Virus record (IMG/VR): IMGVR_UViG_3300035698_009153
Span: 1-24,169 of that record
Source of the DNA: a virus
Direction: 5' to 3' (one strand)
Length of the DNA: 24,169 nucleotides
Shown: positions 3,997-23,522 of the stretch, piece by piece
How positions within the stretch are numbered: the stretch's first letter is position 1
Layout of the letters: every line of letters begins with the position of its first letter
Made by a program: the position numbers and the translations under genes
The notes under the pieces: model-generated
Seen by the model: the letters and a program-made list of their open reading frames with translations, nothing else
Databases searched by the model: none
Told to the model about the DNA's origin: nothing

Positions 3997-6054
3997 CTAC
4001 TTTTTGATGTTCTCACGCTTAGATACGATCGGCTTTTTCTTGTTAAGTTTTAATTCATTCTTAATCATCTTTTCAACTATCTTCTTTCTAAATACCGGTG
4101 AAGATAATTTTTGATTTAAAAATCTTGCTAAACCAATTCCAGCTGGGATGGCTGCCGCACCACCAGCGGTTGCACCTAGCACACCACTCAAAACACCACT
4201 CGCTAAACCGCCAATTGTGCCGCCAGCACCACCACCCATTAAAGCCAGTGTAGCCAAAGTCCTAGCACCAGTCTTAGGACTAGCCATCGCTGAAAAAGCC
4301 TCCGGGTTCATTTTTACTAACTTAGAATAATCATCTAGTTTTTTTATATTGCCCTCAGATAATAATACTTCTCTTTGCCTACTTCCTAATTTCTTATGTA
4401 ATGTTCTAAGTGCTTGGGGTTTTAACTTGTTCTCTGAGAATGCCGAGGCAAAATATTCGCTAGCCACTAAGCCTTTTTTGTTATCTGGCAGTGCATTCAT
4501 TAAAGGTTCAAGTAAATTAGCCCTGTCTGATTTATTGCCAGTCCTTAAGAAATCCTGAACTACCATATCACTATCAGCATGACCCTTTACTATCTTCTTA
4601 ATTTTAGGGTCTAGAAATTTTGCATATTCATCTTTATAAAAATTAAAAGCATCATCCCTTAATTTTTTTAAATTTGCCGACCCTTTATTCTCTATAGAGC
4701 TTTCTATATCTTTTACTAATGCATCCTGTAGCCTTCTAAAGGTTTTATATTTATCTGTCTCGCCTTTCCTGTAAGCTTCATACGAAATATCACCAAGGCG
4801 ACCACGTAAAGTATCAGCTTCTTTTAAACTAAACTCTTTCTTTATCTCTGCACCAGTAGCCGGATTTATTCTTTTTGGTTCGTTTATTCTTGCAACTTTT
4901 TTAAGATAATTAAGATCGGCTTCTCCTACTAAGCCTTGAACAGCGGCATCATTTGCAGCCTCACTTACTAAATCCGCTGCTGCTTTTTCAAATGAATTAC
5001 GACTAGTTCTAACACCCTCTTTTTCTGCTGCGGTATTTAATTTAATAAACTTAGCATTCTTCTCACCTGTTACTTTCTTCGCTGATTCTTGAACCCCTTT
5101 TACAATCTGCTTACCTCTGTCTTCAACTACCACGCCACCAGTTAAAGATTTATATATTTTCCCACCTTCTTTTGTTATCTCTTCGCCAGTCTTTTGAAAC
5201 CCTTCTTTTACTCCAGAAAAAGGTGTTGAACCTAATATTTCTATCTGTCCCTCTTTCAATGACGGTGAATCTAGAATCTCCCCTAATGGTGTTTGACTTT
5301 TACCTGCTATATTTGTATTGCTTACTATTTCTTCTATTGGTAATTCACCCCTGAAAGCTTTTGAAGGTGACAGCTTATCTAATTGCTCACCCCCTTTTTT
5401 TATAGCACTAAGGCCAGAGTCAGCAATTCTAGCTGAGGCTTTTTGTAAACCTCTTATTGCCCCTGGTGCTTTAAAAGGTGTAAGCAGTGAGCCACCAAGC
5501 TGTAACAATTCATCCCCTTCTTGATCTTCACCTAATACTTTCTTTTGTAAACCAGTGTCACCAATTGTTAATGCTTCGGGGATATTAGATAATAACTTAC
5601 CGATACCACCGCCAGCATTTTTTAACATAAAGCTAGATAGCTCCAAAGGGAAGTTGAATAAACTTTTACCACCAGTAGCTAAACCAGCACCGACATCTAA
5701 TGCCGCTCTAGCAGTGTCTTTTTGCACTAAATCTGCGCTTTGCTGCGCCATTTCAGGAGATCTACGAATAAAACCTTTTAAGCCTTCGTAAATATCTTGC
5801 CCACCCTTATACATACCTTGTGCATTTTGTTTGAATGCAGAAAGAGGATCTAGATCACGTTCTTGTTCTTCAGGTGTGATGTTGTCTCTGTATTCGCTTG
5901 TATCACTTCCTATTCTTGCCTTTAATTGATCTAAATATCCCTGCTCTGGCTCGGGCGCATTAAGCTGCGTTAGTATCTCAGGGTTAGTAACTTTTGTACC
6001 CTCTTGTGGGGCATTAAGCTGCGCTAATATCTCTGGTTTTGTGACTCTAGCCAT
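3997..6054 (-). CDS. gp16-like DNA ejection (injection) protein, about 685 aa
   Basis: Large protein in the P22 gene 16 position, after gp7- and gp20-like genes. It begins with two short tandem units, VTKPEILAQLNAP and VTNPEILTQLNAP, of the (V/I)TxPxxLxQLN type seen at the N-terminus of podovirus internal virion proteins. A long helical, charged body follows. The end (about residues 615-665) is very Gly/Ala-rich and hydrophobic, with a lysine-rich tail ending SKRENIKK. A membrane-active C-terminus fits a protein ejected from the capsid to help DNA cross the host envelope. I place the start at the ATG at 6054, which overlaps the previous stop as TAATG. An in-frame ATG at 6066 (adding MAHI) is possible, but its GGGGA lies directly against the codon. 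Confidence 0.8.
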   Translation of the reverse strand: MARVTKPEILAQLNAPQEGTKVTNPEILTQLNAPEPEQGYLDQLKARIGSDTSEYRDNITPEEQERDLDPLSAFKQNAQGMYKGGQDIYEGLKGFIRRSPEMAQQSADLVQKDTARAALDVGAGLATGGKSLFNFPLELSSFMLKNAGGGIGKLLSNIPEALTIGDTGLQKKVLGEDQEGDELLQLGGSLLTPFKAPGAIRGLQKASARIADSGLSAIKKGGEQLDKLSPSKAFRGELPIEEIVSNTNIAGKSQTPLGEILDSPSLKEGQIEILGSTPFSGVKEGFQKTGEEITKEGGKIYKSLTGGVVVEDRGKQIVKGVQESAKKVTGEKNAKFIKLNTAAEKEGVRTSRNSFEKAAADLVSEAANDAAVQGLVGEADLNYLKKVARINEPKRINPATGAEIKKEFSLKEADTLRGRLGDISYEAYRKGETDKYKTFRRLQDALVKDIESSIENKGSANLKKLRDDAFNFYKDEYAKFLDPKIKKIVKGHADSDMVVQDFLRTGNKSDRANLLEPLMNALPDNKKGLVASEYFASAFSENKLKPQALRTLHKKLGSRQREVLLSEGNIKKLDDYSKLVKMNPEAFSAMASPKTGARTLATLALMGGGAGGTIGGLASGVLSGVLGATAGGAAAIPAGIGLARFLNQKLSSPVFRKKIVEKMIKNELKLNKKKPIVSKRENIKK

Positions 6055-18644: not shown

Positions 18645-18670
18645 TATAGTTTGGTTGACACTATAGTTTG
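18645..18670. repeat. Direct TATAGTTTG repeats around rightward -35
   Basis: TATAGTTTG occurs at 18645-18653 and 18662-18670, flanking the TTGACA of the rightward promoter. Overlapping TATAGT/ACTATA dyads are present. These are likely operator sites in the divergent control region. Confidence 0.5.
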
Positions 18671-18682
18671 CTATGATATAAT
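18655..18682 (+). promoter_or_regulatory. Consensus sigma-70 rightward promoter
   Basis: TTGACA (18655-18660), 16-nt spacer, TATAAT (18677-18682): both elements perfect. It drives the small plus-strand genes from 18781. It carries its own 5' leader of about 90 nt with AAGGAAG. Confidence 0.85.
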
Positions 18683-18780: not shown

Positions 18781-18972
18781 ATGACAAACTACACATGGAC
18801 GGATGGACGGCTAAGAGTAACAGACACATTGCAAGGCTGGTTAACTTTTATTGACGCTGAGCAAATGATAAACTTACTACATGAAGGAACACTTAAAAGA
18901 GAATTATCAAAAGTTGTAAAAATTGAAGATGGTAAAAGCTTTAGAGAAATTTATAAGTGTTGGGATAAATAA
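18781..18972 (+). CDS. Small unknown protein after strong promoter (63 aa)
   Basis: The ATG at 18781 lies about 100 bp from the -10 element of the strong rightward promoter; a TAGGATG sequence is upstream but at long spacing. The protein is compact, with an N-terminal beta-like stretch (NYTWTDGRLRVTD) and an amphipathic helix (IDAEQMINLLHEGTLKREL). It has no Cys pair or membrane segment. The stop overlaps the next start as TAATG. The early position after a consensus promoter suggests a small host-takeover or regulatory protein. I recognise no family. Confidence 0.65.
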   Translation: MTNYTWTDGRLRVTDTLQGWLTFIDAEQMINLLHEGTLKRELSKVVKIEDGKSFREIYKCWDK

Positions 18973-19295: not shown

Positions 19296-19502
19296 ATGTC
19301 TAAAGATAATTACCATGTAAAGTTCATCTACAAAGATGAAAACTCTGGAACATACAACGAGACTTGCATTAGCCCCGATATAACAGCGCAGCGAATGTTA
19401 ACCCATTTTATTATATTCATGCAAAACATTGGCTACACTGAAAGAACGATTAAAAGTCTTTACGATAAAGAAAAAAATAAATTACGCATTGTTAAAGATT
19501 AA
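19296..19502 (+). CDS. Small unknown protein (68 aa), convergent with next gene
   Basis: The ATG at 19296 has GGACGG just upstream. The protein is charged with a mixed alpha/beta character: YHVKFIYKDENSGTYNETC, then a helix (AQRMLTHFIIFMQNIG) and a Lys-rich end. It has no recognised motif. Its last 11 bp overlap the end of the minus-strand gene at 19492, so the two converge with no terminator between them. Confidence 0.6.
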   Translation: MSKDNYHVKFIYKDENSGTYNETCISPDITAQRMLTHFIIFMQNIGYTERTIKSLYDKEKNKLRIVKD

Positions 19503-20775: not shown

Positions 20776-22065
20776 TTATGATTGTAACTCCGGTATGTGC
20801 GCTATATTTGGCGGTAAAATCATAAGCAAGAAATATTCAAATAATCTTCTTGGCTTTTCGTGAAACCTATCCTTTTCAGATTGAGAAGCACCCCTCTCTA
20901 ACCAGCGTGAATAGTAGCTTTCAAGGATGGATAACGTCGTCTCTTTGTCTCTACCCTTAGAATACCTCTCAATTTGCTCTGTAATAACGTCTAACGAGCT
21001 TTCATGAGACCCGAATGTCTTTATACCAATGACGCTTAAGATGTCTTGTAAGCTCCCTGTTGCGTTCTTACGGTATGCCCTATGTGAAGCATCTGAACCA
21101 TTAGGCTGCTCTTCTTTCGTGACAGGCTCACCTTCCCAATATTTAACATCAGCAATCCTAGCCATGAAAACAGCAACAGGTGATTTAATCGTTTTGCCGT
21201 GTTTAGAATCTAAGTGAGCAACGAAGTTCCCAATTGACCACTCAATATGTTCAAGGGTTGTTTTATTATTATCTTTGTAATGCAGGTTAATTAATTTCTC
21301 TGCCTGCCTGATTGTAAATACTTTGTCATTTAACTTATCTTTAATTAAATTCTGAACTGCCTTGGTTTCGTTTTTTTGGTTTAATTCTTCTTCAGAAAAA
21401 ACGCGCGTATGTAACGTTCTTTTCTGTAAAGGATCTGCAATAGGTACTGCAATAGGTATAGTGTTGGGATTTCTCCCATTACCATTTGGGATTTCTCCCA
21501 GTACCATTTGGGACTTCTCCCAATTCAGTGTTTGTGCGGTCTGCGGTGATTCTTCACCATGTCTGCCCTTTTGGGCGATAGCATTTGCCCTTTTGGGCGA
21601 TAGCATTTGCCCTTTTGGGCAATTCAGTGTTTGTGCGGTCTGCGGTGATTCTTCACCATGATTGTTAGTTGGGGTATCCGTAGGTATGGATTCCGTACCA
21701 TTGGGTTTTTCTGTTTTGTTTTCGTCTACTCCTAAACCAAGTAACTTGATAGATTTATCACTTAAGCTATACCATTTTGTTTTATCATAAGAGTGTTTAT
21801 TGTGATTACTTTCTAGTATTAGGGCGGCTTTTTTTAGAGAGTTTAAGCCTGTCCTTATTTGGTCGTAAGTTAGGTAGTTGTAATAATCGGCAAATTCCTG
21901 AACTGTGTTATACATCCAATACCTGTCGTTATGGAAGTTTTTCTTAGTTCTAAAATTATTATCTACCCAGTATAGAATACGGCTAAAAATTATAGCTCCT
22001 GCGAAATTCCTGCATTCTTGGTAGATAGCTACATTAAAACTATGATTAGTATTATTGTTTAACAT
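20776..22065 (-). CDS. O-like replication initiator, winged-helix protein with internal ori (429 aa)
   Basis: The ATG at 22065 has GGGAG 9 nt upstream and overlaps a leader-peptide stop (TAATG). Residues 20-105 form a winged-helix domain of the phage/plasmid initiator type (ILYWVDNNF, WMYNTVQEFADYYNYLTYDQ, then NSLKKAALI and DKTKWYSLSD). The linker, about residues 115-215, is low-complexity, and its DNA holds the iterons. Residues about 240-429 form a helical C-terminal domain for helicase-loader contact or dimerisation. As with lambda O, the protein likely binds repeats inside its own gene and loads the replicative helicase. It is followed by three unknown genes, presumably in one operon. 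Function is inferred from fold pattern and iterons. Confidence 0.85.
   Translation of the reverse strand: MLNNNTNHSFNVAIYQECRNFAGAIIFSRILYWVDNNFRTKKNFHNDRYWMYNTVQEFADYYNYLTYDQIRTGLNSLKKAALILESNHNKHSYDKTKWYSLSDKSIKLLGLGVDENKTEKPNGTESIPTDTPTNNHGEESPQTAQTLNCPKGQMLSPKRANAIAQKGRHGEESPQTAQTLNWEKSQMVLGEIPNGNGRNPNTIPIAVPIADPLQKRTLHTRVFSEEELNQKNETKAVQNLIKDKLNDKVFTIRQAEKLINLHYKDNNKTTLEHIEWSIGNFVAHLDSKHGKTIKSPVAVFMARIADVKYWEGEPVTKEEQPNGSDASHRAYRKNATGSLQDILSVIGIKTFGSHESSLDVITEQIERYSKGRDKETTLSILESYYSRWLERGASQSEKDRFHEKPRRLFEYFLLMILPPNIAHIPELQS
21465..21522. repeat. Iteron set A: three palindromic repeats, 22-bp period
   Basis: TGGGA-N4-TCCCA occurs at 21465-21478, 21487-21500 and 21509-21522, exactly 22 bp apart. 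The spacer contains ACCATT or similar. Because 22 is not a multiple of 3 the copies are read in different codon frames, so the conservation is at DNA level. Probable initiator-binding sites of the replication origin. Confidence 0.85.
21522..21660. repeat. 40-bp perfect direct repeats flanking iteron set B
   Basis: Positions 21522-21561 and 21621-21660 are identical over 40 bp, 99 bp (33 codons) apart, encoding HGEESPQTAQTLN twice. The set B iterons lie between them, so a whole cassette looks duplicated or inserted in the initiator linker. Confidence 0.9.
21565..21620. repeat. Iteron set B: three GCCCTTTTGGGC palindromes, 22-bp period
   Basis: GCCCTTTTGGGC at 21565-21576, 21587-21598 and 21609-21620, again 22 bp apart, separated by GATAGCATTT. 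They share the ATTTG-containing spacer style of set A but a different palindrome, suggesting two binding-site families in one origin. Confidence 0.85.
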
Positions 22066-22169
22066 TAATCAACACTCCCTGTGTCTTTATTGTTTGGATT
22101 GGTTTTAGATTGGTTTATTAAAGATAAGTGAAAATATAGCCAAGGGCTATGCATAAATGAAAAAAACAT
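22065..22169 (-). CDS. Leader peptide coupled to initiator (34 aa)
   Basis: From ATG 22169, with AAGGAA 9-10 nt upstream, to a TAA whose last base is the first base of the initiator ATG (TAATG). The peptide starts MFFSFMHSPWLYFHLS and ends NKDTGSVD. Its strong ribosome site and exact stop-start overlap argue that translation of the initiator is coupled to it, as tap is to repA in IncFII plasmids. The peptide itself may have no function. Confidence 0.6.
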   Translation of the reverse strand: MFFSFMHSPWLYFHLSLINQSKTNPNNKDTGSVD

Positions 22170-22189
22170 TTTATTTGTTCCTTTTTCAA

Positions 22190-22260
22190 GAACTAGTCGG
22201 CAATCCGTTAAATTAAAGATTGCAATTGTTAAATTTAGTTGCTATCCTTCCGACTAGTTC
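22190..22260. repeat. 11-bp inverted repeat in initiator 5' region
   Basis: GAACTAGTCGG (22190-22200) and CCGACTAGTTC (22250-22260) are perfect complements around a 49-nt A/T-rich loop. The inner end of one arm lies just upstream of the leader-peptide ribosome site. It may be an RNA stem in sense or antisense transcripts, or a protein-binding dyad. Confidence 0.7.
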
Positions 22261-22292
22261 CTTTGGTGTTTTTTGGAAAGATGACACCGCTT

Positions 22293-22326
22293 AGAGTCAA
22301 GGTTGTTAAGAGCCTTGGCTTTTTTT
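22293..22326 (+). terminator. Plus-strand intrinsic terminator antisense to initiator leader
   Basis: AGTCAAGG (22295-22302) pairs with CCTTGGCT (22313-22320, one G-U), followed by TTTTTT (22321-22326). It terminates rightward RNA, but there is no plus-strand protein gene to its left, so the terminated transcript would be a non-coding RNA antisense to the initiator 5' region. Confidence 0.7.
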
Positions 22327-22350
22327 ATGCCTTGAATTGTGCAAAGTCAA
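22322..22350 (-). promoter_or_regulatory. Candidate leftward promoter for initiator operon
   Basis: On the minus strand TTGACT (22345-22350) and TAAAAA (22322-22327) are 17 nt apart. It overlaps an ATGCCTTG/CAAGGCAT inverted repeat (22327-22334, 22362-22369) and the T-tract of the opposite-strand terminator. The gap 22170-22409 holds no protein gene beyond a 13-codon frame I do not trust. Confidence 0.4.
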
Positions 22351-22409
22351 TAGACCGCTTACAAGGCATTGTTATTATTACTCAAATTATGTTTGTGATC
22401 TAGTTTTTT

Positions 22410-22679
22410 CTAGTAATTCTGCTTAGCGAATACTTGCCTACTTTTTGTAACCAGTCTTTTTATTACGTTCTGGTCTTCAAGTTTTCTTAAAGAACGATAG
22501 ATAGTTCTGATACTCATTTTTAGTACTGTTGCTATTTCTTCTACATCTTGAGCGCATCCGGTATAACTATCACCTTTAGCAATCACATATAAATACAGTC
22601 TGATATCTACAATTGATAACGCCTCATTGAGTAGTATCTCACCAGGTAGTACATAGTTCTTTGACTTATTTAGTAACAT
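22410..22679 (-). CDS. Small winged-helix DNA-binding protein (89 aa)
   Basis: The ATG at 22679 has GGGGAT 4 nt upstream. Residues 25-78 make a helix-turn-helix/winged helix (IRLYLYVIAKG, VEEIATVLKMSIRTIYRSLR, KLEDQNVIKRL), the pattern of small HTH_36-type domains found in phage and plasmid replication regulators. It is not long enough to be a complete initiator. Its position just upstream of the initiator leader suggests a regulator of the initiator operon or a CII-like/Cro-region activator. Confidence 0.75.
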   Translation of the reverse strand: MLLNKSKNYVLPGEILLNEALSIVDIRLYLYVIAKGDSYTGCAQDVEEIATVLKMSIRTIYRSLRKLEDQNVIKRLVTKSRQVFAKQNY

Positions 22680-22680
22680 C

Positions 22681-22731
22681 TTATCCCCTTTGTGCTATGA
22701 TTAATTTGTTAATCATATAATTTGTACTCAT
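22681..22731 (-). CDS. Possible 16-codon leader ORF before HTH gene
   Basis: ATG 22731, with AAGGTG 7 nt upstream, to a TAA one base before the HTH gene ATG (TAAGATG). It encodes MSTNYMINKLIIAQRG. Its stop is adjacent to the next start, as for the initiator leader peptide. It is very short, and the overlapping palindrome may be the real signal. Confidence 0.35.
   Translation of the reverse strand: MSTNYMINKLIIAQRG
22697..22716. promoter_or_regulatory. Perfect palindrome upstream of HTH gene
   Basis: ATGATTAA-TTTG-TTAATCAT: two perfect 8-bp arms about 20 bp from the HTH gene start. Either an operator (autoregulation) or an RNA hairpin near the ribosome site. Confidence 0.55.
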
Positions 22732-22751
22732 TTTACTCACCTTTGTTTAAA

Positions 22752-23084
22752 TTAATGTAAATTCTTATATCCTTCATTTAAAGATTTTATCTTTAGGCAT
22801 AATTCTTTTATGCATCCCTCGTCGCTCAATTCTTCAGTCATAACACTCATAGCATCGGCAAAGGCTTTTTTATAACAATCGACCATGCTTTTTATGAGCA
22901 GCATGCTAAAACAACGCTCTAAAGCTGATTCAGCATCAAGAGCTATATCAATTTCATCTAACAAATCATGCATTGTATTTATGTTCATAACGCATGTTGA
23001 GAAGTTTCTTTGATAATACAACTCAAATTCTTCTTCTATTTCATTTACTTTTAACTTTTCAATGTCTTTAAATTTATAGTCCAT
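22752..23084 (-). CDS. Unknown helical protein (110 aa)
   Basis: I take the ATG at 23084; a GTG three codons upstream is also in frame and neither has a clear ribosome site. The protein is helical and acidic, with Cys residues but no CxxC pair (KDIEKLKVNEIEEEFELYY; MHDLLDEIDIALDAESALER). It lies between the Cro-like/unknown pair and the HTH gene in the leftward early operon. No family recognised. Confidence 0.65.
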   Translation of the reverse strand: MDYKFKDIEKLKVNEIEEEFELYYQRNFSTCVMNINTMHDLLDEIDIALDAESALERCFSMLLIKSMVDCYKKAFADAMSVMTEELSDEGCIKELCLKIKSLNEGYKNLH

Positions 23085-23101
23085 TATATTCACTTAGTTG
23101 A

Positions 23102-23326
23102 TTAGTCAGTTTTTGTAATGTTTTTATTTATTTCACTCATGAAGCTTTTGAATACTTTATCTGTAACTCTTAACCATGTATCAATAAAGACCGAAGCTGC
23201 TATAATTTTATCTTTATCTTTTGATTTTATTAAAGACTCAGCATTATTTAATATAGTTCGTAGTGCTACAATATTCATCTGTGTTTCTACTTGCATGTCT
23301 TTAGGTTTGTTATTTTTTAGGGTCAT
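23102..23326 (-). CDS. Unknown helical protein overlapping Cro-like gene (74 aa)
   Basis: A longer open frame runs back to 23425, but the start is placed at ATG 23326, where AGGAGC lies 9 nt upstream; this leaves a 17-bp overlap with the end of the Cro-like gene, typical of coupled translation. The sequence (NIVALRTILNNAESLIKSKD, ending INKNITKTD) is helical and basic. It is part of the leftward early operon. Function unknown. Confidence 0.65.
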   Translation of the reverse strand: MTLKNNKPKDMQVETQMNIVALRTILNNAESLIKSKDKDKIIAASVFIDTWLRVTDKVFKSFMSEINKNITKTD

Positions 23327-23522
23327 GCTTATTGCTCCTGACTTTTGTATTATCGATATTGATTTTAAGCTTATTCTTTGTATCTCTAGAAAACTTACAT
23401 TGAGATACCAAAGGAACATAGCCACGTTTTTTCCATTCGCTAAAAGCCGCCCTTGTTAGGCCGATTGCCCTTGTGGCATTTGTGCCTGTGCCGTAATAAT
23501 CCAGCAGGTCTTGAATGGTCAT
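23310..23522 (-). CDS. Cro-like repressor (70 aa)
   Basis: The ATG at 23522 has GGAG about 10 nt upstream. Residues 1-36 match the small Cro/P22-Cro type: an N-terminal DLLDYYGTGTNATRAIGLTR helix-turn-helix and AAFSEWKKRGYVPLVSQCKF as recognition part. The C-terminus is basic. It lies first in the leftward operon, divergent from the recombinase, with operator-like repeats in the gap. Lambdoid Cro shuts down early and repressor promoters. No CI gene is in the window, so whether this protein acts as Cro or as the only repressor is open. Confidence 0.8.
   Translation of the reverse strand: MTIQDLLDYYGTGTNATRAIGLTRAAFSEWKKRGYVPLVSQCKFSRDTKNKLKINIDNTKVRSNKHDPKK

Follow-up and report, generated by a model that had tools for sequence, protein, structure and literature searches.

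A predicted antisense RNA gene in front of a phage replication initiator appears to resemble lambda OOP more than plasmid copy control

In the early region of an uncultivated virus record, an intrinsic terminator lies upstream of a replication initiator gene and points away from it, in a spacer that also contains inverted repeats and a short leader ORF overlapping the start of the initiator. A preliminary description, made from the sequence alone, proposed that the terminator could end an antisense RNA against the leader and compared the arrangement with the copy control of plasmids. This raises the question of what is transcribed towards this terminator, and whether a plasmid or a phage system is the better model for it.

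The early operon and its initiator

The window, by which we mean the whole stretch of DNA analysed, is a virus record of 24169 bases (IMGVR_UViG_3300035698_009153). All of its structural genes are on the minus strand; TerS and TerL were identified by Pfam and PHROG profile searches, the portal protein is kin of those of P22-like podophages, and at the right end a RecE-like exonuclease is encoded divergently, on the plus strand. The early operon has the order Cro, two small ORFs, an 89-aa winged-helix protein, a spacer, a 34-codon ORF and the initiator. The Cro-like regulator at its head (23310..23522, minus strand) was recognised by P22_Cro (E 5e-7) and PHROG 409. The winged-helix protein (22410..22679, minus strand) is in the position of cII and matched HTH_36 in Pfam and PHROG 1835, 428 and 270, through which it is akin to the N-terminal parts of phage initiators. 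Directly upstream of its gene there is a 9-bp palindrome, TATGATTAA/TTAATCATA (22696-22717), a possible operator.

The initiator itself (20776..22065, minus strand, 429 aa) is an O/DnaD-like phage protein, which matched PHROG 11233 (replication initiation protein, E 1e-22) and PHROG 6493 (DnaD-like, E 2e-14), while a Pfam search at 0.001 gave no match. Its start is consistent with an alignment in which the homologues begin with M-HSFN, and its relatives, at about 20-36 per cent identity, are found in phages of many hosts. Inside the gene, at 21440-21690 on the minus strand, there are iteron-like repeats (TGCCCAAAAGGGCAAATGCTATCG, GGGAGAAATCCCAAATGGTA), and a segment of about 40 bp is also repeated; by analogy with lambda O, these are probably the origin. 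The initiator families matched in PHROG are phage families only, and none is of the plasmid RepA type. With a virus record, a terminase, a portal, Cro and a phage initiator, the 'plasmid-like' part of the earlier proposal is not supported.

Searching by initiator, no close relatives were confirmed in viral_contigs (7 stretches) or genome_contigs (15 stretches), the early region gave no blastn match against phages, and the exact pair of 11-bp repeats described below was not found in viral_contigs. No Rfam family reached its gathering score in the window; matches to STnc240, rli24, MIR169_2 and snoR25 had E values of about 4 and were taken as chance.

Terminator, candidate promoter and leader in the spacer

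The terminator (22293..22326, plus strand) was found by both the strict finder and folding, and consists of a 12-bp stem that includes G-U pairs, followed by seven T rather than the six first reported. Its hairpin (22293-22322) has a predicted energy of -15.6 kcal/mol and a z-score of -3.8. The strict finder returns no other plus-strand terminator in the whole 24-kb window, against two on the minus strand, and a plus-strand terminator of any kind appeared in 5 of 200 shuffled versions of a 500-nt region. When lambda was passed through the same finder as a control, exactly one antisense terminator was returned within 500 nt upstream of O, the tO hairpin, and its energy is similar to that of the window terminator (-14.5 against -14.7). 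The 8-bp inverted repeat noticed beside it is present (22327-22334/22362-22369) but at chance level, as 685 of 2000 shuffles contain one. The string ACCGCTTA followed by CAAGG also occurs twice, at 22286-22303 in the terminator region and at 22354-22366 downstream of the terminator.

The best-scoring promoter site upstream of the terminator is a candidate with TTGCAA (22220-22225), a spacer of 17 and TATCCT (22243-22248) on the plus strand, with TGC before the -10 making it an extended -10 site, from which transcription would start near 22255. The preliminary description had called this pair weak and we agree, because its score with the TG was reached in 45 of 1000 shuffles, and in 246 of 1000 when the TG was not demanded. 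By the same scoring, the promoter of lambda oop too has an extended -10. A second candidate plus-strand promoter (22018-22046) lies inside the initiator gene and would give an RNA of about 270 nt that crosses the initiator start.

From the first of these promoters, an antisense RNA of about 72 nt (22255..22326, plus strand) with two stem-loops is predicted. Folding 22254-22326 as RNA gave a z-score of -3.86 for the plus strand against -0.62 for the minus strand, and the structure therefore belongs to the plus strand. This RNA would lie about 85 nt upstream of the leader start and would end at 22326, 84 nt short of the stop of the winged-helix gene at 22410; therefore the only target in cis is the spacer before the leader. 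The LexA consensus is CTGT-N8-ACAG, and no match to it with at most two mismatches was found from 21627 to 23161, so that control of the antisense promoter by LexA was rejected.

On the other strand, the 34-codon leader ORF (22065-22169, minus strand) with its overlap to the initiator ATG, TAATG, was confirmed in the sequence. Its Shine-Dalgarno (SD) sequence, AAAAAGGA, found by script, makes a good ribosome site, and an ATG ORF at least as long in the same frame was found in 42 of 2000 shuffles. Translational coupling between leader and initiator is plausible. In the predicted fold, the SD of the initiator, GGGAG, is mostly unpaired (0.76-0.92) in a hairpin loop, and the start codon is paired on two of its three bases. 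The perfect 11-bp inverted repeat upstream of the leader also stood up to examination (22190-22200/22250-22260, minus strand); when the 344-nt spacer was shuffled, 29 of 2000 versions contained one. It is predicted to form in the free mRNA as a strong stem-loop directly upstream of the leader ribosome site (z -5.0 for the fold of 22180-22270).

An alternative hairpin, GUUCUU/AAGGAAC (22177..22193, minus strand, -5.5 kcal/mol alone), would cover this ribosome site. When 22255-22326 was blocked in the model, the cost of opening the leader SD rose from 3.87 to 5.5 kcal/mol, an increase matched in 10 of 300 shuffles; the blocked cost ranged from 3.9 to 5.5 kcal/mol over assumed starts of 22250-22262, and the SD is already largely paired in the predicted fold without the antisense RNA. 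The refolding by which an antisense RNA would hide the leader ribosome site is a modest predicted effect, proposed post hoc.

Lambda OOP and plasmid R1 as models

As the locus belongs to a virus record with a terminase, a portal, Cro and an O/DnaD-like initiator, the nearest precedent is therefore the pO-oop-tO unit of lambda. Two papers place OOP in the order cro, cII, oop, O (PMC5869508, PMC3985674). In the first of these, the 5' end of the RNA is at 38675, the RNA overlaps the 3' end of cII by 52 bases, and a LexA site and RNase III are involved. Phage small RNAs have been reviewed (PMC12197685). The window order of Cro, two ORFs, the winged-helix gene, spacer and initiator matches that of lambda, and in both cases the unit is located between the initiator and a small regulator gene that follows cro, is directed away from the initiator, has a (here candidate) extended -10 promoter and an intrinsic terminator, and is of similar length. 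However, the predicted RNA does not overlap the 3' end of the upstream gene, that gene encodes a winged-helix protein, likened to cII by its position, and a LexA-like site is absent at the locus. Two defining features of OOP, the overlap of the cII type and the LexA site, therefore fail, and the RNA was not filed as an OOP RNA; the unit is OOP-like in layout, with a different target.

In the CopA/tap/repA system of plasmid R1, a short leader ORF runs over the start of the initiator, and the antisense RNA CopA lies upstream of this leader. The window shares with it an overlapping leader downstream of a (here predicted) antisense RNA and the possibility that leader translation controls the initiator; on the target side, CopA/tap/repA is the nearer model. 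It differs from R1 in that the initiator is of the O/DnaD-like phage type and not RepA, there is no sign of a plasmid, the predicted RNA and the leader start are about 85 nt apart, and the sequences of the two hairpins are different. From the original suggestion of a CopA-like antisense RNA to the initiator leader, what survives is an antisense RNA, which best explains the terminator and would target the spacer ahead of the leader; the plasmid setting does not survive.

We therefore take the best explanation to be an OOP-like antisense unit of the phage, placed before an initiator coupled to its leader, although for the whole chain of steps, drawn from sequence, our confidence is evenly balanced. 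While the terminator and the strand-specific fold were computed, we infer the promoter and the transcript. RNA polymerase would start near 22255 on the plus strand, directly upstream of the coupled leader and initiator, read away from them and stop at 22326. The resulting RNA, of about 72 nt, would be complementary over its whole length to the early mRNA, within the spacer that separates the leader ORF from the winged-helix gene. On pairing, the 5' arm of the 11-bp stem would be occupied, and the released 3' arm could close the hairpin over the leader ribosome site. Translation of the leader would then fall and, through the TAATG coupling, so would that of the initiator, with RNase III cleavage of the duplex, as in lambda, possibly adding to the effect. 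Initiator output, and hence phage replication, would be damped as the number of templates rises.

A reading in which the RNA itself does not matter is that a pO-like convergent promoter has been retained, which interferes with early transcription and aids activation of the origin, while the terminator only confines it. This matches the argument made for lambda in PMC3985674, that pO activity is important for replication and oop RNA itself is of little effect. It leaves the strong fold outside the terminator, the leader ORF and the 11-bp stem without explanation, and we regard it as unlikely. The terminator could also end a longer plus-strand transcript, either the RNA of about 270 nt from 22018-22046 or one from a promoter at 18655-18682 that would run antisense through the replication genes. 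The latter site is a perfect-consensus extended -10 promoter (12/12 with TG) on the plus strand, followed by two small plus-strand ORFs (18781-18972 and 19296-19502) that are opposite to the rest of the region, and the strict finder shows no plus-strand terminator before 22321. It is accordingly not strictly safe to say, as the preliminary description did, that the terminator is needed by no plus-strand gene, even though this promoter and these ORFs are about 3-3.7 kb away. However, neither ORF matched a PHROG family, and an untranslated antisense run of 3.7 kb would be improbable without antitermination, which makes the longer transcript rather unlikely in our view.

The spacer could instead work as a regulatory leader on the sense strand only, in which the 11-bp stem, the ribosome-site hairpin and the peptide answer to the winged-helix product or to the initiator and the terminator is accidental. 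Both the minus-strand fold of 22180-22270 (z -5.0) and the covarying sense hairpins upstream of related initiators, described below, are in its favour; the terminator hairpin is specific to the plus strand and any terminator at all was rare among the shuffles (5/200), so that we find this reading quite improbable. Finally, a small ORF, a hairpin and a T run could have come together by chance in an AT-rich spacer. The chance rates of the single features are 1.5-4.5 per cent and the features were chosen after the fact, but several rare features occur together, the fold is strand-specific and antisense terminators are enriched at this position in related initiators; a chance assembly is very improbable.

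OOP RNA is read mainly as a regulator of cII, and its role in lambda replication is disputed (PMC3985674). If real, an OOP-like unit that is unable to reach the upstream gene and is opposed to a leader coupled with the initiator would offer a clean system, in which the antisense RNA acts on the replication genes only, and it would tie the timing of phage replication to the logic of plasmid copy control. Among the titles listed in the open-access literature searched, none describes a phage initiator with both an antisense RNA and a leader peptide.

Antisense terminators and leaders of related initiators

To place the locus among its relatives, 237 viral loci carrying the N-domain of the initiator were gathered in three scans (80 kept of 489, 142 and 369 confirmed), of which 235 had a start; these formed 93 clusters at 70 per cent identity, and counts were weighted by cluster. 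Antisense terminators within 250 nt upstream of the initiator had a weight of 8.2 in 91 clusters, against an average of about 1.4 in the other 23 bins, but the in-gene bin +250..+500 reached 6.0 clusters and the upstream bin is therefore not unique. In the initiator genes of 7 clusters, antisense terminator-like hairpins were seen at +250..+500, about where in-gene origins lie. Because intergenic gaps are richer in terminators, a comparison was confined to co-directional gaps, taken as stretches of 60 nt or more with a forward gene on either side by crude ORF calls. Before initiators, such gaps had antisense-only terminators in 5.1 of 28 clusters; elsewhere, they had them in 1.0 of 59 clusters. 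One gap per cluster was drawn at random 200 times, and the median Fisher p was 0.012. A first pass of 80 loci, 70 of them with a start, had given an antisense terminator in 12, against 3 of 420 shuffles. This suggests that antisense units recur in front of phage initiators.

Among 23 loci related by portal, a Cro homologue was found in L024 and L014 only. Neither has an antisense terminator by a simple scan, nor L024 by the strict finder. In L024 a good antisense promoter, TTGTTA-16-TATAAT with TG (4962-4989, minus strand), lies just inside the O-like gene, which is the position of pO in lambda, and is followed by weak hairpins only.

Other initiators of the HSFN/DnaD type also have leaders with a hairpin, a ribosome site within a small hairpin and a short ORF overlapping the initiator. 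They differ from the window in that the ORF has 15-16 codons and an unrelated sequence and that they carry a GGGGAG/CUCRACCC hairpin, which is absent from the window; antisense terminators occur in some members only. ORFs of 10-60 codons that have a ribosome site and overlap the initiator had a weight of only 3.2 in 91 clusters (0.6 in shuffles), and longer overlapping genes a weight of 5.4 clusters. In the largest cluster, a distant initiator group, a 15-16-codon ORF with an ATGA overlap and similar peptides was present in 19 of 52 distinct upstream sequences. Its translation is not proven by codon statistics alone, since the synonymous share of single-base codon differences in frame 2 (170 of 387) is no lower than that in frame 0 (226 of 589). 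In one locus (L220:2585-3004), the leader ORF, with the same first eleven residues as the leader peptides of related phages (MSNTRHRTIAQ), continues without change of frame as an HNH endonuclease, whose gene overlaps the start of the initiator.

Two of the hairpins in these leaders covary. At the ribosome site of the 15-16-codon leader, a four-pair hairpin keeps its pairing although both sides differ in 6 cells; shuffles gave 2.0, and 1 of 500 reached that count. The GGGGAG..CUC-RA-CCC hairpin, which has a two-base bulge and belongs to a structured leader about 150 nt upstream of the initiator, showed changes on both sides in 5 of 12 pairs, where shuffles gave 1.7 and none of 500 was as high, in rows picked by eye (L223, L225, L226, L236, L241, L246, L248, L253, L255, L262, L263, L228 and L229). 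The row sets A6 (17 rows) and A7 (13 rows) were chosen by eye, 15 and 12 of their rows, respectively, being drawn from the 52 distinct upstream sequences of the largest cluster, and the pair counts are therefore not those of a random sample. An Rfam search with the leaders carrying the GGGGAG hairpin gave no match.

A more general reading is that phages of the HSFN/DnaD type have repeatedly evolved plasmid-style replication control, with a structured leader, a short coupled peptide and, in several lineages, an OOP-like RNA directed at the initiator instead of at a regulator of lysogeny, so that lambda OOP would be a specialised member of a wider class. We offer this tentatively and consider it doubtful.

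The GGGGAG/CUCAACCC hairpin was also considered as a mark specific to initiators, and this was rejected, as among the matches listed that had at least 500 nt downstream, it precedes the initiator family in 7 of 108. In viral_contigs (loci from L271 on), at least 120 stretches contain the pattern GGGGAGCG-N3-24-CGCTCAACCC, and the other ORFs downstream of it resemble, by eye, replication or HNH genes.
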